The notes below the pieces were generated by a model. The model did no database searches, was not told the origin of the DNA, and saw nothing but the letters and a program-made list of their open reading frames with translations. A stretch of DNA of 64,000 nucleotides from Microcella flavibacter. GTDB taxonomy: Bacteria > Actinomycetota > Actinomycetes > Actinomycetales > Microbacteriaceae. The DNA lies in NCBI RefSeq assembly GCF_012530535.1, contig NZ_CP051299.1, positions 806,001 through 870,000 on the forward strand. The letters run 5' to 3'. Below, one piece after another: positions 25 through 17,591 of the stretch (positions are counted from its first letter, which is position 1; every line of letters starts with the position of its first letter). Both the position numbers and the translations under genes were made by a program.

Positions 25-44
25 ATCGTTTGAGGCCGAACGAT
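25..44. promoter_or_regulatory. Operator-like palindrome, copy 1, before the glutamine-synthetase-like gene
   Basis: ATCGTT and AACGAT form perfect half-sites around an 8-base spacer. The same 20-bp pattern (WTCGTTTKNNSCCGAAYGAK, 13 positions identical in all copies) recurs at 2314-2333 and 2419-2438, in front of the other two transcription units of this locus. TACAGT at 19-24 could be the -10 element, so a bound regulator would sit over the transcription start. The regulator itself is not recognised in the window. Confidence 0.7.
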
Positions 45-81
45 CGGATCGTCCGCCACGAGTGCCACAAGGGAGTGGACC

Positions 82-1440
82 ATGGAACGAAGCCTTCTGC
101 ACCTTCAGACCGAGCTGACCGAGGCCGGCATCGACGTGCTGCGGGTCATCTACGCCGACATCCTCGGCACCACCCGCGCGAAGGACATGCTCGTGAGCGA
201 GCTCGGCCGCGTCAGCCACGGCGGCCCCGCCTTCTGCCAGGGGGTGTGGGTCACGACGACCCACGGCGACGTGCTCGACGGCGGCTCGGTGCTGACCGAC
301 GGGCTCGAGGACTTCATCTCGCAGATCGTGCCGGGCTCATGGCGCCCCATGCCGTGGGAACCCGGCGTCGCCTACGCCGTCGCGGGCGCCGCGAACCCCG
401 ACATGACCCCCAACGCCTTCGCGCCGCGCACCCTGCTCGAGCGCATCGTCGGCGAGTACGACGCCCTCGGGCTGACCCCGATCGTCGGCCCCGAGCTCGA
501 GTTCTTCATCGCGGAGGCCCGCGAGGGCAGCGCCCCGGGCTATCAGCAGGCGATCCAGCAGCCCGGCCGCGTCTACACCTCGGGCGCCACCGTCGATCCG
601 CACGGCACCTTCCTGCACCTGCTGCGCATGCTCGACCGGATGCGCATCGGCGTGTTCGCCGGCAACCACGAGTTCAGCGCCAGCCAGTACGAGATCAACT
701 TCTGGCACGGCGAGGCCCTCGACGCGGCCGACCGCACCCTGCTGCTGAAGACCGCGGTGAAGGACGTCGTCGCCCGCACGGGCCGGCACGCCACCTTCCT
801 CGGCAAGCCGTGGACGGAGGAGGGCGGCAGCGGCTTCCATCTGCACTTCTCGGTCGTCGACGCCGAGGGTCGCACCCTCATGCACGAGGGCGACGGATCG
901 CTCACCGAGCTCGCCCGGCACATGATCGGCGGCATCGTGCACCACGCGGCCGCGCTCACCGCCCTCTGCAACCCGACGATCAACGCCTTCAAGCGCCTCG
1001 GTCCCGACACCCTCGCGCCGTACCGCGCCAACTGGGGCTTCGACAACCGCAGCGCCCTCGTGCGCATCCCGCCCGAGCGCGGCGAGGGCACCCGCCTCGA
1101 GATCCGTCTCGGCGACGGCTCCGCCAATCCGTACCTGCTGACCGCGGCCGTCCTCGCCGCCGGGCTCGACGGCATCCGCACGAAGCGCGAGCCGGCCGAG
1201 CCCGTCCAGGGGCTCGCCTACGGCGACGAGGGCGGGGCGGTGCTGCCCATGACGCTGGGGGCGGCGCTGGATGCCCTGCACGACGACGCCGTGCTGTGCG
1301 AGATGCTCGGCGGCCCGCTCGTCGAGGTCTTCGAGGTGCTCAAGCGCGACGAGGTGGCGCGCTACACCGAGTCGGTGGCCGACCCCGAGACCCGCGAGGT
1401 CACCTCGTGGGAGGTCGAGGAGTACTTCCTCGACCTGTAG
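82..1440 (+). CDS. Glutamine-synthetase-like gamma-glutamyl-amine ligase
   Basis: This 452-residue protein belongs to the glutamine synthetase superfamily. Visible signatures are the metal/ATP-site ELE at 138-140, NHE...QYEINF around 196-207, the HLH of GSGFHLHFS near 254-256, and the NWGFDNRS and RLEIR segments around 318-343. The ligase joins glutamate to an amine using ATP. Its neighbours, an amine/amino-acid permease and a gamma-glutamyl hydrolase, point to gamma-glutamylation of a polyamine or another amine (PuuA-like) rather than primary ammonia assimilation. I see no adenylylation-loop tyrosine motif of housekeeping GlnA. The ATG is preceded by AAGGGAG at good spacing. The exact amine cannot be read from the sequence. 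Confidence 0.85.
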   Translation: MERSLLHLQTELTEAGIDVLRVIYADILGTTRAKDMLVSELGRVSHGGPAFCQGVWVTTTHGDVLDGGSVLTDGLEDFISQIVPGSWRPMPWEPGVAYAVAGAANPDMTPNAFAPRTLLERIVGEYDALGLTPIVGPELEFFIAEAREGSAPGYQQAIQQPGRVYTSGATVDPHGTFLHLLRMLDRMRIGVFAGNHEFSASQYEINFWHGEALDAADRTLLLKTAVKDVVARTGRHATFLGKPWTEEGGSGFHLHFSVVDAEGRTLMHEGDGSLTELARHMIGGIVHHAAALTALCNPTINAFKRLGPDTLAPYRANWGFDNRSALVRIPPERGEGTRLEIRLGDGSANPYLLTAAVLAAGLDGIRTKREPAEPVQGLAYGDEGGAVLPMTLGAALDALHDDAVLCEMLGGPLVEVFEVLKRDEVARYTESVADPETREVTSWEVEEYFLDL

Positions 1441-1456
1441 GCCGGAGAGGGCCGCT

Positions 1457-1476
1457 CGGCCGGCCGCTGCCGGCCG
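1457..1476. terminator. GC-rich hairpin between convergent genes
   Basis: CGGCCGGC and GCCGGCCG form a perfect 8-bp stem around a CGCT loop, between the ends of the convergent ligase and decarboxylase-like genes. There is no T tract, so this may act as a bidirectional terminator or only as a barrier. Confidence 0.5.
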
Positions 1477-1483
1477 GGCCGCC

Positions 1484-2296
1484 TCAGACCGAGGGGTCCG
1501 ACCGATCGGCGACGAGGCTGCCGCCGTTGAACGTCACCCCGACCTCCCGGTAGTACGCCGCGATGTGCTCGCGCACCGGCAGGATCGACCCGAGCTCGTC
1601 CCAGGGCGAGTCGGCGAGCACGAGCTCGGCGTCGCCGACCCAGGTCTCGCCGATCTCGGCATCGGTCGTGCTCATGGTGATGAGCTGGTCGAGGCTGTTG
1701 CCGGCGCCGGGGGTGATGGAGGGCATCCACCGCGAATGCAGCATGGGGTGGCCGTTGACGAAGCCGTTCGTCTCGCTCGGCTCGCGCAGCGTGACGACGA
1801 GCGAGGCGAGGCGGTGGTCGTAGGCCGCGAGCGAGGCGCCGAGCTTCGCGCCCGGCGCGAGGCGGGGGGAGGCCTTGCCGACGGAGAACACGCGGGTCAC
1901 GGCCATCGAGCCGAGCTTCTTCGGGTAGCCCTGGAACCAGCCGCGGCCGATCGCGAAGTCCTTCGTCACCCAGATGGCGACGCAGCGGGTGTAGGTGACG
2001 CCTTCGTAGCGGCACCGCACGACGGCGAAGGTCTCCAGGTACTGCGAGCGCTGCGGGTCGAGCAGCTCGGCCCCGCCCGTCGAGCACGACTGCCAGTCGG
2101 CCCAGATGAGGGCGACGGCGCCCGGGTCCTCCTCGGCGAGCTCGACGCCCTGCGGCAGCAGCGCCGCGACCTTCTCGGGGTCGGTGCGGTACTCGGCGGT
2201 GAGGAGCGTCCCCGAGTAGTACCAGGGCATGTCGGGCACGATCGCGCTCGTGCCGGTCGGGGTCTGCGGGGCCATGAAACCGCGGAGGTCTGCCAT
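1484..2296 (-). CDS. Acetoacetate-decarboxylase-family protein
   Basis: This 270-residue protein has the FQGYPKKLG segment (PKK at 125-127) that matches the catalytic Lys-Lys motif of acetoacetate decarboxylases, where the first lysine forms a Schiff base with the keto acid. The family also contains aldolase/dehydratase-type relatives, so the substrate is open. It is transcribed away from the APC permease and towards the ligase. Its promoter carries the locus palindrome, which suggests it is co-controlled with amine breakdown and might process a keto-acid product. The ATG at 2296 lies 7 bases after a TAGCCT -10 element, so the mRNA is probably leaderless. Confidence 0.8.
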   Translation of the reverse strand: MADLRGFMAPQTPTGTSAIVPDMPWYYSGTLLTAEYRTDPEKVAALLPQGVELAEEDPGAVALIWADWQSCSTGGAELLDPQRSQYLETFAVVRCRYEGVTYTRCVAIWVTKDFAIGRGWFQGYPKKLGSMAVTRVFSVGKASPRLAPGAKLGASLAAYDHRLASLVVTLREPSETNGFVNGHPMLHSRWMPSITPGAGNSLDQLITMSTTDAEIGETWVGDAELVLADSPWDELGSILPVREHIAAYYREVGVTFNGGSLVADRSDPSV

Positions 2297-2303
2297 GGGC
2301 GCC

Positions 2304-2333
2304 AGGCTAGCAACTCATTCGGGAACAAACGAT
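2304..2333 (-). promoter_or_regulatory. Promoter with operator copy 2 for the decarboxylase-like gene
   Basis: Read on the minus strand, TAGCCT (2304-2309) is a good -10, 7 bases from the ATG. The palindrome copy (2314-2333, ATCGTTTG and CCGAATGAG halves) fills the spacer and covers the expected -35 position, 17 bases upstream. That geometry predicts repression by the bound factor. Confidence 0.6.
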
Positions 2334-2381
2334 AGGGCGGCGGCGGAATCTGCTGAGCGGAATTCCGCATCCTCGGGATGC

Positions 2382-2410
2382 TTGACGGGGGCAGGCGCGT
2401 CCTCCACTCT
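2382..2410 (+). promoter_or_regulatory. Promoter of the APC permease unit
   Basis: TTGACG (2382-2387) and CACTCT (2405-2410) are separated by 17 bases, a good housekeeping-sigma arrangement. Transcription would start near 2417, directly before operator copy 3. Confidence 0.55.
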
Positions 2411-2418
2411 TGAGCCAC

Positions 2419-2438
2419 TTCGTTTTGACCCGAACGAT
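2419..2438. promoter_or_regulatory. Operator-like palindrome, copy 3, before the APC permease
   Basis: TTCGTT and AACGAT flank an 8-base spacer. The site is just downstream of the -10 and ends 28 bases before the permease ATG, in the same relative place as copy 1 before the ligase gene. Confidence 0.65.
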
Positions 2439-2466: not shown

Positions 2467-3984
2467 ATGACCCACCCCGCCCCTGCCGCCGGCACCGCCC
2501 CCGCCGACCGCGACTCCGCCCTCCGCCCCGGCCGCCTCGGCGTGCTCGGCATCGTCTTCTTCGTCGTCGCCGCCTCGGCCCCGCTCATCGGCATCACGGG
2601 CGCCGTGCCCGTGGCGATGCTGCTCGGCACCGGGGCCGCCGTGCCGGGCGCCTACCTCGCCGTCGGGCTCACCCTGCTGCTGTTCTCCGTCGGCTACGCC
2701 ACCATGAGCCGGCAGATGACGAACTCCGGCGCCTTCTTCGCCTACGTCGGCAAGGGGCTCGGCGTGCGCGCCGGCGTCGCGGCGGCCTTCGCCGCCCTCC
2801 TCGCGTACCTCACCATCCAGCTCGCCATCTACGGCTTCTTCGGCGTCGTCGCCTCGGGCTTCGCCGCCGGCCTCGGCCTCGATCTGCCCTGGTGGGTCTG
2901 GTCGATCCTCGTCTGGGTGATCGTCAGCGGCCTCTCGCTGCTGAGCGTCGACGTGGGCGCGAAGGTGCTCGGCGTCATGCTCGTGCTCGAGGTGATCGTG
3001 CTGCTCGTCGCGGCGATCGCCATGCTCGCGAACGGCGGCCCCGAGGGGTGGATGCTCGGCGCCTCCTTCTCGCCCGACCAGGTCTTCGCGGGCGGCTTCG
3101 CCGGCACCGCGGGCATCGCCCTGGCCTTCGCCTTCGCGAGCTTCATCGGCTTCGAGGCCACCGCGATCTACGGCGAGGAGGCGAAGGACCCGAAGCGCAC
3201 CGTGCCGATCGCGACCTACATCTCGATCGTCGTCATCAGCGTGCTGTTCGCCATCGTCTCCTTCGCGATGGTCACCGGCATGGGCGCCTCGCAGGTGGCC
3301 GACCGGGTCATCGAGCTCTCGGGCGGCCTGGCCGACCCCGCCGGGGTGCTCTTCGGCCTCACCGAGCAGTACGTCGGCGGCTGGCTGACCGTCGCGATGG
3401 GCATCCTCGTCATCACGAGCCTCTTCGCGGGCCTGCTCGCGTTCCAGAACGCGGCGAGCCGCTACTTCTTCGCGCTCGGGCGCGGCGGCGTCCTGCCCGC
3501 CGCGGTCGCCCGCACCAACGCGGCGGGCGCCCCGATCATCGGCGTCGCCATCACCTCGGTGATCGCGCTCGTCGTGATGATCGTCTTCGCCGTCGCGGGC
3601 CTCGACCCCTTCGCGAACCTGTTCTCGTGGATGAGCTCGGTGACGGTCATCGCCATCGTGCTCGTCGAGATCCTCGTCAGCATCGCCGTCATCCGGTACT
3701 TCCTGTCGCACGAGGGCGGCACGGTCTGGTCCACGAAGATCGCCCCGGCGCTGTCGATCCTCGCGCTCGGCGTCGGGCTCTACCTGCTCATGTCGCGCTT
3801 CAACCTGCTCGCCGGCACCGCGCCCGAGGGCGTCGACCCCTCGCTGCCCGAGAGCGCCTGGCAGCTCAACGGCCTCGGCTGGCTGCTCGTGCTGCTTCCC
3901 TTCGTGCTGCTCGTCGTCGGCTTCGTCGTCGCCCGCACCGGGGCGCGCCGCAGCGAGCAGCTCGTCAAGGACTTCGCGTCCTGA
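2467..3984 (+). CDS. APC-superfamily amino acid/polyamine permease
   Basis: This 505-residue polytopic membrane protein has about 12 hydrophobic segments. It opens with the APC-type GxxxxxGxxP-like stretch (ASAPLIGITGAVP) and contains FASFIGFEATAIYGEEAKDPKRTVP, the conserved segment after TM5-6 of amino acid-polyamine-organocation carriers. It should import an amine or amino acid for the adjacent ligase. The ATG at 2467 was chosen because GAGGAG precedes it at about 9 bases; an upstream TTG at 2410 lies inside the promoter. The gene is followed at 50 bases by the sigma-4-like gene and then the hydrolase, likely one operon under the palindrome. Confidence 0.88.
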   Translation: MTHPAPAAGTAPADRDSALRPGRLGVLGIVFFVVAASAPLIGITGAVPVAMLLGTGAAVPGAYLAVGLTLLLFSVGYATMSRQMTNSGAFFAYVGKGLGVRAGVAAAFAALLAYLTIQLAIYGFFGVVASGFAAGLGLDLPWWVWSILVWVIVSGLSLLSVDVGAKVLGVMLVLEVIVLLVAAIAMLANGGPEGWMLGASFSPDQVFAGGFAGTAGIALAFAFASFIGFEATAIYGEEAKDPKRTVPIATYISIVVISVLFAIVSFAMVTGMGASQVADRVIELSGGLADPAGVLFGLTEQYVGGWLTVAMGILVITSLFAGLLAFQNAASRYFFALGRGGVLPAAVARTNAAGAPIIGVAITSVIALVVMIVFAVAGLDPFANLFSWMSSVTVIAIVLVEILVSIAVIRYFLSHEGGTVWSTKIAPALSILALGVGLYLLMSRFNLLAGTAPEGVDPSLPESAWQLNGLGWLLVLLPFVLLVVGFVVARTGARRSEQLVKDFAS

Positions 3985-4034: not shown

Positions 4035-4316
4035 ATGCGAGACGACGAATTCGACCTGGACGTCACCGCGGCGCAGCCCATCGACGACGCCGCGATCGCC
4101 GCGCTGAGCCGCGACGAGCTCATCCAGGCGATCGTCGCCCTGCCGCCCGAGCTGCGCATGGGCATGGGCGGCATCCTGCTCGAGAAGCGCACCTACTCCG
4201 ACGTCTCGCAGGAGCTCGGCATCCGCCAGGCCGAGCTCGTGCGGCAGGTGCACCGCGGCCGGGCGCTCATCTCGCGGCAGCTCGCGGGCCGAGCGGGCCG
4301 GGCGGGCGAGGCGTGA
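4035..4316 (+). CDS. Small stand-alone sigma-region-4-like helix-turn-helix protein
   Basis: This 93-residue protein has an acidic N-terminus. Residues 35-80 read like sigma-70 region 4: LPPELR, a helix-turn-helix around YSDVSQELGIRQAELVRQV, then HRGRALISRQL. There is no region 2, so it cannot be a full sigma factor. It may bind DNA or act as a co-regulator of RNA polymerase. GAGAGAGGA precedes the ATG, and the stop overlaps the next start by 4 bases (GTGA), so it is translationally coupled to the hydrolase. Its place inside an amine-catabolism operon suggests a local regulatory role, but this is inference. Confidence 0.7.
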   Translation: MRDDEFDLDVTAAQPIDDAAIAALSRDELIQAIVALPPELRMGMGGILLEKRTYSDVSQELGIRQAELVRQVHRGRALISRQLAGRAGRAGEA

Positions 4317-5029
4317 GCAGGCCGCCCGTCATCGGGCTCAGCACCTACCTCGAGCCCGCGGCGATGGGCCTCTGGGACCGCCCCGCCGTCGTCCTGCCGC
4401 GCGTCTACACCGACGCCGTGCTCGCCGCGGGCGGCGTGCCGGTCGGGCTGCCCCCGCAGCCGCCGACCCCTGCGGCGGTCGCCGCGGTGCTCGACGCCAT
4501 CGACGGGCTCGTCATCACCGGCGGCAAGGACGTCGATGCGGCGCTCTACGGCCAGGCCGCGCATCCCGAGAACGACGCCCCGCGCCCCGATCGCGACGCC
4601 TGGGAGATCGCGCTCGTGCGCGCGGCGATCGAGCGCGACCTGCCCCTGCTCGGCATCTGCCGCGGCCTGCAGGTGCTCGTCGTCGCCCTCGGCGGCACCC
4701 TCGTGCAGCACCTTCCCGACGTGATCGGCTCGAGCCGGTACAGCAACGGCGACGCGACCTTCGCCGACAACCCCGTGCTCATCGAGGCGGGCAGCCTCGT
4801 CGCCGGGATGCTCGGCGCGAGCGCGACCGTGAAGAGCTACCACCACCAGGCCGCCGACCGCGTGCCGCCCGGGCTCGCGATCACCGCGCGCGGCGACGAC
4901 GGCGTGGTGCAGGCCGTCGAGGTCGCCGGCATGCGCTTCGGCGTCGCCGTGCAGTGGCACCCGGAGGAATCGCCCGAGGACGCCCGGCTGCTGACCGGCC
5001 TGGTCGAGGCCGCCCGCACGTCGCGATAG
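4313..5029 (+). CDS. Gamma-glutamyl-gamma-aminobutyrate hydrolase-like (peptidase C26)
   Basis: This 238-residue class I glutamine-amidotransferase fold hydrolase has the nucleophile elbow GICRGLQ (Cys116), the oxyanion-side TGGKDV segment and the His216/Glu218 of QWHPEES, completing a Cys-His-Glu triad. Family members cleave gamma-glutamyl amides, as PuuD does in the putrescine pathway, releasing glutamate. Together with the upstream ligase and permease it completes uptake, gamma-glutamylation and hydrolysis. No oxidase or aldehyde dehydrogenase of the full Puu pathway lies in the window; these may be upstream of position 1. The GTG start overlaps the preceding gene. Confidence 0.85.
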   Translation: MSRPPVIGLSTYLEPAAMGLWDRPAVVLPRVYTDAVLAAGGVPVGLPPQPPTPAAVAAVLDAIDGLVITGGKDVDAALYGQAAHPENDAPRPDRDAWEIALVRAAIERDLPLLGICRGLQVLVVALGGTLVQHLPDVIGSSRYSNGDATFADNPVLIEAGSLVAGMLGASATVKSYHHQAADRVPPGLAITARGDDGVVQAVEVAGMRFGVAVQWHPEESPEDARLLTGLVEAARTSR

Positions 5030-7158: not shown

Positions 7159-8930
7159 GCGACGCCGATCGTCTCCTCGCCGCGCTCGACGAGCAGCAGC
7201 GCACGGTCGCCGAGAGCCTGCTCGGCCCCGTCTGCGTGCTCGCCGGCGCCGGCACCGGCAAGACCCGGGCCATCACGCACCGCATCGCCTACGGCGTGGC
7301 GACGGGCTCGTACGACCCCTCGCGGGTCATGGCGCTGACGTTCACGACGCGGGCGGCGGGCGAGCTCGCCGGCCGGCTGCGGGCTCTCGGGGCGGAGGGC
7401 GTCGCGGCGCGCACCTTCCACTCGGCGGCGCTGCGCCAGCTGCACTACTTCTGGCCCATCGTCGTCGGCGGCAGCGCGCCGAGCATCCTCGACGGCAAGG
7501 CGCGCCTGCTCGGCCAGGCCGCCGCGAGCATGAAGCTCACCGTCGACACCGCCGCCCTGCGCGATGCGGCCGCCGAGATCGAGTGGCGCAAGGTCAGCCG
7601 CATGAGCATGACGCAGTACGCGAGGGCCGCCGAGAGCCGCACGATGCCCGCGAAGCTCGACGTCGGCCAGATGGTCGAGCTGCACCGCCGGTACGAGCAG
7701 CTGAAGGACGAGCGCCGGCAGATCGACTTCGAGGACGTCCTCCTGGTGACGGCCGGGATGCTCGAATCCGAGCCGCGCGTGGCCGAGCAGGTGCGCGAGC
7801 AGTACCGCTTCTTCGTCGTCGACGAGTACCAGGACGTCTCGCCCCTGCAGCACGACCTGCTGACGCTCTGGCTCGGAGGGCGGCGCGAGCTCTGCGTGGT
7901 CGGCGACGCCTCGCAGACCATCTACTCGTTCGCGGGCGCCTCGAGCGACTACCTCGTGCGCTTCGGCGCCGAGTACCCCGACGCCGAGGTCGTGCGCCTG
8001 GAGGAGAACTACCGCTCGACGGGCGAGATCGTCGCCCTCGCCAACCGCCTCATGCGCGGCCGCCCCGGGGCGCTCACGCTGCGCGCCGCGGGGGAGGCCG
8101 CCGCCGCGGGTGCCACGCCCACGGTGAGCCGGCACGCCGACGACGCCGCCGAGTCGGCCGCGCTCGCGCAGTCGATCGCGCGCCGCATCGCCGACGGCAC
8201 GCCGCCCGAGTCGATCGCCGTGCTGTACCGCATCAACACGCAGTCGATCGCGATCGAGGCGGCGCTGCGGCGCGCGGGCATCCCCGTGCAGACGCGCGCG
8301 AACAGCCGCTTCTTCGACCAGCCGGAGGTCAAGCAGGCGATCATGCTGCTGCGCGGCGCCTCGATCGCCGGTGCCGCCTCCGTCGGCGGCGGCGAGGAGC
8401 CCCTGTTCAAGAGCGTGAGCGACGTGCTGCGCGGGCTCGGCTGGCAGCAGGACGCCCCCGAGGGCTCCGGCGCCGAGCGCGCCCGGTGGGACAGCCTGAC
8501 CGCGCTGCTCGGTCTCGCCGAGGAGGCGCCCGCGGGCACGACGCTCGCCGACTTCGTGCGCGAGCTGCAGCGCCGGGTGCAGGCCCAGCACGAGCCGACC
8601 CGCTCGGCCGTGACCCTCTCGACGCTGCACGCGGCGAAGGGCCTGGAGTGGGACGTCGTGCACATCGTCGGCCTCAGCGAGGGGCTCGTGCCGATCAGCT
8701 TCGCGAAGGGGCTCGAGGCGATCGACGAGGAGCGCCGGCTGTTCTACGTGGGCGTCACGCGCGCCCGCCGCGTGCTCGAGCTCTCGTGGGCGCAGCGACC
8801 GATGCAGGCCCGGGCCGAGCGCTCGGCCAGCCGGTTCCTCGACGAGATCCGCCCGCCGGGATCGGCCGCGGGCTCCGGGGCGATCGCCGCGGGCGCCGGG
8901 CTCAACCGGCGATCGGCACTGCGCGACTGA
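7155..8930 (+). CDS. uvrD2: UvrD/Rep-family ATP-dependent DNA helicase
   Basis: This 591-residue superfamily 1A 3'-5' helicase has all main motifs: Walker A AGAGTGKT, motif Ia TFTTRAAGE, Walker B FFVVDEYQD, motif III GDASQTIYSFAGA, motif IV EENYRST, motif V TLHAAKGLEWD and motif VI FYVGVTRAR. It unwinds DNA in repair. It is shorter than mycobacterial UvrD2 because no HRDC domain follows motif VI; the protein ends in an Ala/Gly-rich tail. The ATG overlaps the nudC stop. The 3' end overlaps the convergent E1-like gene by 29 bases. Confidence 0.9.
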   Translation: MSDADRLLAALDEQQRTVAESLLGPVCVLAGAGTGKTRAITHRIAYGVATGSYDPSRVMALTFTTRAAGELAGRLRALGAEGVAARTFHSAALRQLHYFWPIVVGGSAPSILDGKARLLGQAAASMKLTVDTAALRDAAAEIEWRKVSRMSMTQYARAAESRTMPAKLDVGQMVELHRRYEQLKDERRQIDFEDVLLVTAGMLESEPRVAEQVREQYRFFVVDEYQDVSPLQHDLLTLWLGGRRELCVVGDASQTIYSFAGASSDYLVRFGAEYPDAEVVRLEENYRSTGEIVALANRLMRGRPGALTLRAAGEAAAAGATPTVSRHADDAAESAALAQSIARRIADGTPPESIAVLYRINTQSIAIEAALRRAGIPVQTRANSRFFDQPEVKQAIMLLRGASIAGAASVGGGEEPLFKSVSDVLRGLGWQQDAPEGSGAERARWDSLTALLGLAEEAPAGTTLADFVRELQRRVQAQHEPTRSAVTLSTLHAAKGLEWDVVHIVGLSEGLVPISFAKGLEAIDEERRLFYVGVTRARRVLELSWAQRPMQARAERSASRFLDEIRPPGSAAGSGAIAAGAGLNRRSALRD

Positions 8931-16709: not shown

Positions 16710-17591
16710 TCAGCGGCGGGGCGGCTGCGCCCCCGGCCACTGCACGGCCGCGGCACCCGCGGCGATTCCGCGGTCGAGCGCCGACGTCAGGGCGCCGCCG
16801 TCGGCGAGCTCGGCTGCGAGGGCTCCGGCGAAGGCGTCGCCCGCGCCCGTCGTGTCGACGACCTCGACGCGGGGGGCCTCGCGACGCACGACGCCGTGGG
16901 AGTCCGCGGCGACCGCGCCCGCGCCGCCGAGCGTGATGACGACGCTGCGGCAGTGCGCGAGCAGCTCTGCGGCGGCGCGCTCCGCGCCCTCGGCGTCGAC
17001 CGCGCGCCCGAGCAGGTCGCCGGCCTCGGCGGCGTTGACGACGAGCGGATCGCACAGCTCAAGCAGCCAGGGCTCGACGGCCCGGCTGGGGGAGAGGTTG
17101 AGCACGAGGCGGGCGGCGTGCCGCTCCAGAGCCCGGGCGGCGGCCTCGACGACCTCGAGCGGCACCTCGAGCTGCGCCAGCAGCACCGTGCCCGGGCCGG
17201 CGAGCTCGTCGATGCGGGCGACGACGGCAGCGGCATCCACCCGGGCGTTCGCGCCGGGGGAGACCACGATGCTGTTCTCGCCCGCGCGATCGAGGGTGAT
17301 CAGGGCGACGCCGGTGGGCGCGTCGGCGACGACGGCGACGCTCGAGACGTCGACCCCGCCGGCGCCGAGGGCGTCCAGCAGGGCGCGGCCGTTCGCGTCG
17401 TCGCCGACGGCGGCGAGCATGACCGGCATCGCGCCGGCCCGCGCCGCCGCGAGCGCCTGATTGGCGCCCTTGCCGCCTGTCGCGGTGACCAGGTCACCGC
17501 CCAGGAGGGTCTCACCGGGCCGCGGATGGCGCTCCACCGCGACCGTGAGGTCGGTGTTCGCGGAGCCGAGGACGAGGAGGGAGGCGCTCAT
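16710..17591 (-). CDS. rbsK: Ribokinase-family sugar kinase
   Basis: This 293-residue PfkB-family kinase has the N-terminal substrate loop GGKGANQALAAARAG and the C-terminal DTTGAGDAFAGAL signature with the catalytic aspartate. Ribokinase phosphorylates ribose at O5 for entry to the pentose phosphate pathway. Length and motif spacing fit ribokinase better than fructokinase. No ribose transporter or repressor is next to it, so substrate assignment rests on the motifs only. The ATG at 17591 (MSASLLVLG) is the start that places the first beta strand correctly. Confidence 0.82.
   Translation of the reverse strand: MSASLLVLGSANTDLTVAVERHPRPGETLLGGDLVTATGGKGANQALAAARAGAMPVMLAAVGDDANGRALLDALGAGGVDVSSVAVVADAPTGVALITLDRAGENSIVVSPGANARVDAAAVVARIDELAGPGTVLLAQLEVPLEVVEAAARALERHAARLVLNLSPSRAVEPWLLELCDPLVVNAAEAGDLLGRAVDAEGAERAAAELLAHCRSVVITLGGAGAVAADSHGVVRREAPRVEVVDTTGAGDAFAGALAAELADGGALTSALDRGIAAGAAAVQWPGAQPPRR

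Follow-up and report, generated by a model that had tools for sequence, protein, structure and literature searches.

A putative MarR-controlled locus for gamma-glutamylation and ring cleavage of an aromatic amine in Microcella flavibacter

The stretch considered here covers 64,000 nucleotides of Microcella flavibacter (contig NZ_CP051299.1, positions 806,001 to 870,000; hereafter the window). Near its start are genes for a gamma-glutamyl amine ligase, a protein of the acetoacetate decarboxylase (ADC) superfamily, and a permease, each with a 20-bp operator-like site at its promoter. These genes are half of a full locus that looks, from its sequence, like an undescribed catabolism of an aromatic amine such as tyramine in aquatic actinobacteria, in which the amine would be tagged with glutamate and the ring then broken. 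The sites very probably form part of a small conserved regulon of five operator-like sites and a MarR-family regulator. The predicted regulon has at least six transcription units: the ligase; an amidotransferase-like gene; the ADC-like gene; the permease, a helix-turn-helix (HTH) gene, and a PuuD-like gene; a cytochrome P450 gene with the divergent MarR gene; and an operon of aldehyde dehydrogenase, extradiol dioxygenase, FAH-family enzyme, ferredoxin, and reductase. The overall proposal, a MarR-regulated glutamylation and ring-cleavage pathway for a tyramine-like amine, is given somewhat better than an even chance.

Operator-like sites and the candidate regulator

All three window sites match WTCGTTTKNNSCCGAAYGAK with zero mismatches, and 13 of their 20 positions are invariant by eye. 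With up to three mismatches allowed, the window contains four matches, the fourth being site 1 on the opposite strand, a duplicate that has been excluded from the site count; shuffled sequences give a mean of 0.31 matches and 0 of 100 reach four. The palindromes are imperfect, with 14, 10, and 12 of 20 positions self-complementary in sites 1, 2, and 3, and the symmetric form, TCGTTCGGATCCGAACGA, is visible only in the comparative consensus. The sites lie 37, 17, and 28 bases from their start codons. The sequence TACAGT (19–24) stands directly 5′ of site 1, and inspection by eye places TTGACG (2382–2387) and CACTCT (2405–2410) 5′ of site 3. Also by eye, TAGCCT (2309–2304, minus strand) directly follows site 2, which therefore covers the -35 position. 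This placement is repressor-like.

In the 2,620,736-base genome, the pattern TCGTTTNNNNCCGAAYGA occurs at 13 places when two mismatches are allowed. The exact matches are the three window sites only; the other ten places have two mismatches, and two of these are found upstream, ~4 kb before the window begins. For the symmetric pattern TCRTTNNNNNNCGAAYGA there are 16 places, and for a control pattern none. Four of the 16 are exact, all within the cluster, and the 12 one-mismatch places comprise one in the cluster and 11 elsewhere, of which seven have been inspected. The initial annotation, made from the window alone, had described the three sites with their 13 invariant positions, their repressor-like placement at promoters, and a small regulon uniting the ligase, the ADC-like protein, and the permease/PuuD-like unit. 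These claims are upheld.

The same annotation had placed the regulator out of view; a MarR-family gene is found one gene cluster away, ~3.6 kb upstream of window position 1 (position 11001 of L009, the segment 795001–812500 of the same contig). Toward the window, the gene order in L009 is ferredoxin reductase, ferredoxin, FAH-family gene, LigB-type dioxygenase, and aldehyde dehydrogenase (all on the minus strand), followed by MarR, P450, a quinone-oxidoreductase-like gene, the amidotransferase-like gene, site 1, and the ligase. Two further sites flank the MarR gene, one between it and the P450 gene and one at the aldehyde dehydrogenase operon. The three units of the initial annotation were right, and the regulon extends beyond them to the P450 system and a homoprotocatechuate-like operon. 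A -10-like TAGCAT directly precedes the aldehyde dehydrogenase site, and TAGTAT lies inside the P450 site. The MarR protein scores 46 bits with PF01047 (cut-off 24.6) and 48 bits with the HpaR equivalog TIGR02337 (cut-off 121.2), and is very probably the regulator of the sites.

The locus is conserved well beyond this genome. Ten core genes (reductase, ferredoxin, FAH, dioxygenase, dehydrogenase, MarR, P450, amidotransferase, ligase, and ADC) keep the same order in 15/15 compared stretches, from M. flavibacter and 14 relatives; 13 of these stretches also include the permease, and 11 the PuuD-like gene. Of 26 Microcella genomes, 23 contain a MarR relative (E ≤ 1e-20). The cluster and its sites also occur in small-genome Rhodoluna-type loci (L053–L060 and L062, some on partial contigs). 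Among 79 relatives of one Rhodoluna-type genome, 19 have a P450 match at E ≤ 1e-100; six P450 matches at 30–32% identity (Lentzea, Nocardia) were set aside as unrelated once one of them (L063) had been mapped. Across 396 genomes of the order, the dioxygenase matches at E ≤ 1e-40 in seven: M. flavibacter itself and six genomes of other families. The six loci contain reshuffled subsets of the cluster genes together with the palindrome, and the ligase is present in all six (best match at 44–49% identity), at distances from ~1–4 kb to ~10 kb from the dioxygenase.

Conservation of the sites has been measured with a position weight matrix trained on other lineages and scored on upstream regions, with significance at p ≤ 0.01. 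A row was used when tblastn gave a match exceeding a set identity and the whole upstream region was available, the seed pattern came from the M. flavibacter sites, and the smallest possible p is ~0.01 (100 shuffles). The seven regions amount to five independent sites in each genome, as the ligase and amidotransferase genes share one site, the MarR and P450 genes share another, and the ADC and permease regions overlap. In Microcella, the site is significant for aldehyde dehydrogenase (22/22), MarR (23/23), P450 (23/23), amidotransferase (21/21), ligase (21/21), ADC (19/19), and permease (16/17). The Rhodoluna-type loci give 7/7 for each first gene except P450 (6/7). Operon-internal controls give 0/23 (Microcella) and 0/7 (Rhodoluna-type) for the dioxygenase and 0/13 for PuuD. 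In the other families, the ligase (5/5), ADC (2/2), and permease (2/2) regions all score, as do aldehyde dehydrogenase in 2/3 and MarR in 1/3; non-first genes give 0/4 (P450) and 1/4 (amidotransferase), and the dioxygenase gives 6/9, the six appearing to begin their own unit. By this measure, the sites are mostly at the first genes of transcription units. The initial annotation had named loss of the motif from orthologous promoters as grounds for refuting the regulon; the motif is conserved there in Microcella, Rhodoluna-type, and other-family genomes.

Also, site 2 has a mean column identity of 0.93 in 12 sequences, against 0.61 for the remaining region between the ADC and permease genes. For the permease site, the value is 0.70, depressed by start calls that cut the site in several rows. 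In one relative (G003), ~1.1 Mb separate the permease-HTH-PuuD operon from the other cluster genes, and the operon has kept a perfect site; the MarR relative of this genome (G003:C1:2139092-2139592) contains one in-frame TGA. Second, lone dioxygenase copies have been observed in three 6–7-Mb genomes of another family, each with a near-perfect site (L076 11624–11641, L077 9611–9628, and L079 9724–9741).

Predicted enzymes and the proposed pathway

The ligase falls under every equivalog cut-off, including that of the PuuA-type model NF045547 (236.7 of 650 bits). It has no Asp at the place of Asp50′ and a Leu replaces the flap Glu in 8/8 aligned orthologs. According to portions of PMC11335346, amine ligases have lost this ammonia-site Asp and flap Glu. 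The protein thus combines a glutamine synthetase fold with loss of both residues, as in GoaS, and is a predicted GoaS-like gamma-glutamyl organic amine ligase.

The closest PDB neighbour of the ADC-superfamily protein is MppR (4jm3), followed by 6eej and 4zbo; 4zbo/6eej are Sbi00515 and a relative with aldolase-dehydratase activity. Its Lys126 is invariant in 15/15 sequences and aligns with the Lys of the GMPK motif of MppR, a residue presumed to be catalytic there, so that a Schiff-base lysine is conserved. The protein scores 183.2 of 380 bits with the MppR equivalog TIGR04460, and its AlphaFold2 model (mean pLDDT, the predicted local distance difference test score, of 46.1) is too poor for use. 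A true acetoacetate decarboxylase has been rejected, given these PDB neighbours and a PRK02265 score of 30 of 150 bits. MppR is an aldolase, as stated in part of PMC7820114, and because it is the nearest PDB entry, a decarboxylase role is unlikely. A hydratase/retro-aldolase is proposed instead.

In the upstream operon, the dioxygenase residues H12, H60, E243, Y128, and H187 are invariant in 14/14 sequences; they correspond to the metal ligands and second-shell Tyr/His residues of extradiol dioxygenases named in PMC5291488, and the 2-His-1-Glu site of LigB-type enzymes is present. The ring-cleavage proteins remain under the equivalog cut-offs of HpaD (133 of 315.95 bits), HpaE (516.6 of 638.35), and HpaG-C (199.1 of 276.4). 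The P450 family leaves the reaction unfixed.

From these assignments, the following pathway can be proposed. The MarR protein would bind sites overlapping or abutting the -10/-35 elements and be released by the substrate or an intermediate. A tyramine-like aryl-ethylamine would be imported by the permease, or produced from an aromatic amino acid, and converted by the ligase to gamma-glutamyl-tyramine. The ring would next be hydroxylated to gamma-glutamyl-dopamine by the P450, served by its ferredoxin and reductase, and the extradiol dioxygenase, the dehydrogenase, and the FAH-family decarboxylase would carry out homoprotocatechuate-type steps on the N-glutamylated side chain. Forming an imine through Lys126, the ADC-superfamily enzyme would then hydrate the product and split it into pyruvate and gamma-glutamyl-gamma-aminobutyraldehyde, which is an intermediate of the Puu pathway. 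An aldehyde dehydrogenase would oxidize the latter to the gamma-glutamyl form of gamma-aminobutyrate (GABA), and the PuuD-like hydrolase would release GABA for GabT and succinic semialdehyde dehydrogenase (SSADH). The amidotransferase-like gene may prevent accumulation of the gamma-glutamyl amide, much as a GAT-like enzyme does in the aniline system.

The proposed chemistry follows from the established homoprotocatechuate pathway, in which a side chain of the form CH2-COOH is converted to succinic semialdehyde, with pyruvate as the other product (PMC12718150). A CH2-CH2-NH-glutamyl side chain taken through the same steps would therefore yield pyruvate and gamma-glutamyl-gamma-aminobutyraldehyde, the substrate of PuuC, after which PuuD would yield GABA. 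The 5-carboxymethyl-2-hydroxymuconate semialdehyde (CHMS) dehydrogenase of the 4-hydroxyphenylacetate pathway also oxidizes succinic semialdehyde (PMC12718150, in part), and therefore one enzyme might serve both oxidations. HpaI exceeds its cut-off in 0/11 genomes, with weak partial matches in two. HpaH exceeds its cut-off in 0/16, with lower matches in three other-family genomes and no match at all in M. flavibacter, five Microcella, and five Rhodoluna-type genomes. The model would account for the ring-cleavage operon, for the ADC-superfamily protein, and for a cluster that has a PuuA/PuuD-like pair but no PuuB.

Some genomes show positional links to genes of GABA metabolism. In M. flavibacter, gabT adjoins an SSADH-like gene (548.7 of 646.35 bits), and in G003 the site and its permease-HTH-PuuD operon lie directly behind gabT-SSADH. 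In G426, the permease has as neighbours an aminotransferase gene and one for an aminobutyraldehyde dehydrogenase above its cut-off (672.9 of 615), although these could also serve putrescine. GabT is above its cut-off in 11/11 genomes.

A possible link to tyrosine is provided by the site CCGTTCGGGGGCGAACGA, which lies far from the cluster and 83 bases upstream of a pyridoxal phosphate (PLP) decarboxylase gene. The best NCBIfam match of this protein is the tyrosine decarboxylase MfnA; its best two matches, TIGR03812 (129.4 of 299.4 bits) and TIGR03811 (113.7 of 905.3), remain under their cut-offs, and its best PDB match is a non-canonical aromatic amino acid decarboxylase. We regard this site as a lead. 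In the segment with this gene (L095, ~1710–2100) lies a tandem array of near-identical units that resemble the 3′ part of a tRNA gene and adjoin a tRNA-like end.

The small HTH gene between the permease and the hydrolase has a counterpart at the same place in relatives, and a similar reading frame stands beside the ferredoxin reductase in L057 (3763–3987), L060 (1566–1793), and L115 (5493–5717). The protein accompanies the cluster in two positions, 5′ of the PuuD-like gene or adjoining the ferredoxin reductase.

Table 1. Features of the locus and of the distant decarboxylase genes. Positions are those of the window unless a segment is named.
Feature	Position	Strand	Remarks
Operator-like site 1	25–44	+	Separates ligase gene from divergent amidotransferase-like gene
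Gamma-glutamyl amine ligase, glutamine-synthetase-like (GoaS-like)	82–1440	+	PF00120, E 2.4e-88
ADC-superfamily protein	1484–2296	-	PF06314, E 3.4e-57
Operator-like site 2	2314–2333	-	ADC promoter
Operator-like site 3	2419–2438	+	Permease promoter
APC-family amine or amino-acid permease	2467–3984	+	PF13520, E 1.9e-24; below all equivalog cut-offs
93-residue sigma-70 region-4-like HTH protein	4035–4316	+	TIGR02937, E 2.7e-05, below cut-off; PF08281, E 0.018
PuuD-like Peptidase_C26 gamma-glutamyl hydrolase	4313–5029	+	PF07722, E 5.8e-61; NF008471, 112.8 bits, cut-off 266
MarR-family gene	L009 6836–7357	-	
Cytochrome P450	L009 7442–8680	+	
Class-I glutamine-amidotransferase-like gene	L009 10271–10984	-	Divergent from ligase; upstream, ending at the window edge
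PLP decarboxylase, aromatic-amino-acid-decarboxylase-like	L095 11–1417	-	Site at 1501–1518
Decarboxylase ortholog of G005	L102 5780–7171	-	Site at 7255–7272, spacer changed

Weighing the alternatives

Several observations weigh against the proposed pathway or its regulon. From base composition, ~10 one-mismatch places of the symmetric pattern are expected by chance, compared with the 11 found outside the cluster. Outside the family, the MarR regions score in 1/3 loci, and therefore autoregulation is not general. Because the dioxygenase, dehydrogenase, FAH, MarR, ligase, and hydrolase proteins are all below their equivalog cut-offs, the substrates assigned to them are tentative. A dedicated PuuC-like gene has not been found in the M. 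flavibacter cluster. GabT occurs in 18 of 19 genomes with the cluster and in 42 of 60 without it; such a profile does not discriminate, and its presence therefore proves little. The decarboxylase site scores 12.7 (16.2 in G005) against 21.8–27.0 for the cluster sites, two other outside sites (14.8 and 13.9) outscore it, and the decarboxylase ortholog was found in one of the five genomes tried, the other stretches having been guessed from synteny. Finally, the M. flavibacter genome encodes a flavin-amine-oxidase-like protein (L094) that matches no assigned family.

The last point bears on the alternative that survives best, which we nonetheless consider unlikely. Here, tyramine or a relative would first be deaminated to an arylacetate, hydroxylated by the P450, and cleaved as ordinary homoprotocatechuate to pyruvate and succinic semialdehyde; the ligase and hydrolases would serve storage, detoxification, or transport, and the regulon would be unchanged. 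The homology of the ring-cleavage enzymes to HpaD, HpaE, and HpaG and the weak similarity of the regulator to HpaR (48 bits) speak for it, like L094, but every Hpa-type match is below its cut-off and the cluster contains no amine oxidase. A copper amine oxidase occurs in two of 16 genomes, both of another family and neither Microcella nor Rhodoluna-type. In five Rhodoluna-type genomes, three of the seven PF01593 proteins were scanned, and all three best matched carotenoid desaturases. Over six genomes, seven of 11 PF01593 proteins were scanned, of which four were best matched by carotenoid-desaturase models (one below cut-off), one by PRK07233, and one by protoporphyrinogen oxidase below cut-off; the seventh is L094, so M. 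flavibacter may still possess a flavin amine oxidase. Moreover, gamma-glutamylation of a monoamine masks the sole amine open to an oxidase, and ligase genes stand beside the dioxygenase in 6/6 other-family genomes.

Less likely still is that the nitrogen-retaining pathway operates as proposed on another aryl-ethylamine (phenethylamine, 3-methoxytyramine, or octopamine) or on several. The P450 family, which does not fix the reaction, leaves room for this. Also, in an other-family genome (G034), a VanA-type Rieske oxygenase, resembling vanillate O-demethylase, is encoded together with its reductase (L072 15202–17217, minus strand), and these genes carry a perfect TCGTTCGGATCCGAACGA (17246–17263), which suggests methoxylated substrates in that genome. 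The extra site at the tyrosine-decarboxylase-like gene points to tyramine instead, although weakly.

The same Rieske oxygenase has been considered for an aniline-type route, which we judge improbable, more so than the two preceding alternatives. An arylamine would be gamma-glutamylated and an oxygenase would strip off the nitrogen, leaving a substituted catechol for the meta-cleavage operon. A ligase and an amidotransferase-like gene next to an oxygenase do resemble the aniline and 1-naphthylamine systems as far as these are covered in the relevant part of PMC11335346. On the other hand, the P450 of the M. flavibacter cluster is not accompanied by a Rieske dioxygenase, the VanA-type enzyme being found in G034 only among the loci read, and the route does not explain why there is a separate hydrolase of PuuD type or why GABA genes are linked by position. 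A plain putrescine (Puu) pathway has been rejected, as the PuuA and PuuD scores are under their cut-offs and the oxidase is not in the cluster.

We return, then, to the glutamylation and ring-cleavage pathway. Its core, the nitrogen-retaining cleavage of an aryl-ethylamine ring, has an even to very slightly favourable chance in our judgement, and tyramine in particular as the substrate falls a little short of that. Similarly tentative, just under an even chance, is the claim of a new tyrosine/tyramine route in which a glutamate-capped nitrogen is kept through ring cleavage, the ring becomes pyruvate and the side chain GABA, the ADC enzyme acts as hydratase and retro-aldolase, and one MarR repressor controls the whole, kept even in 1.0–1.6-Mb genomes. 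No account of a pathway of this kind was recognised in searches of the open-licence literature, judged by titles and the opening lines of abstracts. If true, the textbook Puu and Hpa pathways would be joined at a chemically exact point, the ligase and hydrolase without an amine oxidase would be explained, and the ADC-superfamily protein would gain a catabolic role. The pathway would also indicate a possible food of streamlined aquatic actinobacteria, and the orphan repressor with its five mapped operators would make a directly testable system.

Comparison with known systems

The locus shares a gamma-glutamyl ligase, an APC permease, and a gamma-glutamyl-GABA-type hydrolase with the Puu pathway and, by proposal, the intermediates gamma-glutamyl-aminobutyraldehyde and gamma-glutamyl-GABA. 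It differs in its MarR-type regulator and in the ring-cleavage operon within the regulon. The PuuA and PuuD scores are far under their cut-offs, and PuuB and PuuC have not been found within the cluster (no genome-wide PuuB search was made); the PuuA/PuuD-type pathway with an odd addition, as the initial annotation had it, is therefore not supported.

The ADC-superfamily protein resembles the MppR/Sbi00515-type aldolases and Saccharolobus Sso1221/Sso1222 in sequence and in its conserved Lys. Unlike MppR, it misses the MppR equivalog cut-off, and its aldolase activity is predicted. Sso1221 and Sso1222 have been proposed as aldolases in a phenol meta pathway in part of PMC7820114.

The homoprotocatechuate/4-hydroxyphenylacetate meta-cleavage (Hpa) pathway likewise has a LigB-type dioxygenase, an HpaE-like dehydrogenase, an HpaG-like FAH enzyme, and a MarR-family regulator. 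In the present locus, however, all equivalog cut-offs are missed, HpaH and HpaI are not above theirs, and the ligase and hydrolases are added. Within the cluster, a P450 system takes the place of a flavin hydroxylase, no genome-wide search for HpaBC or HpaF having been made.

The aniline and 1-naphthylamine systems (AtdA, TdnQ, and NpaA; GoaS) are alike in gamma-glutamylating the amine before oxygenation, in a GAT-like partner gene, and in the lost ammonia-site residues of the ligase. In those systems, the gamma-glutamyl amide is the substrate of a Rieske dioxygenase and the resulting diol lacks the nitrogen, whereas here a P450 takes this place and, in our model, the nitrogen would be retained.

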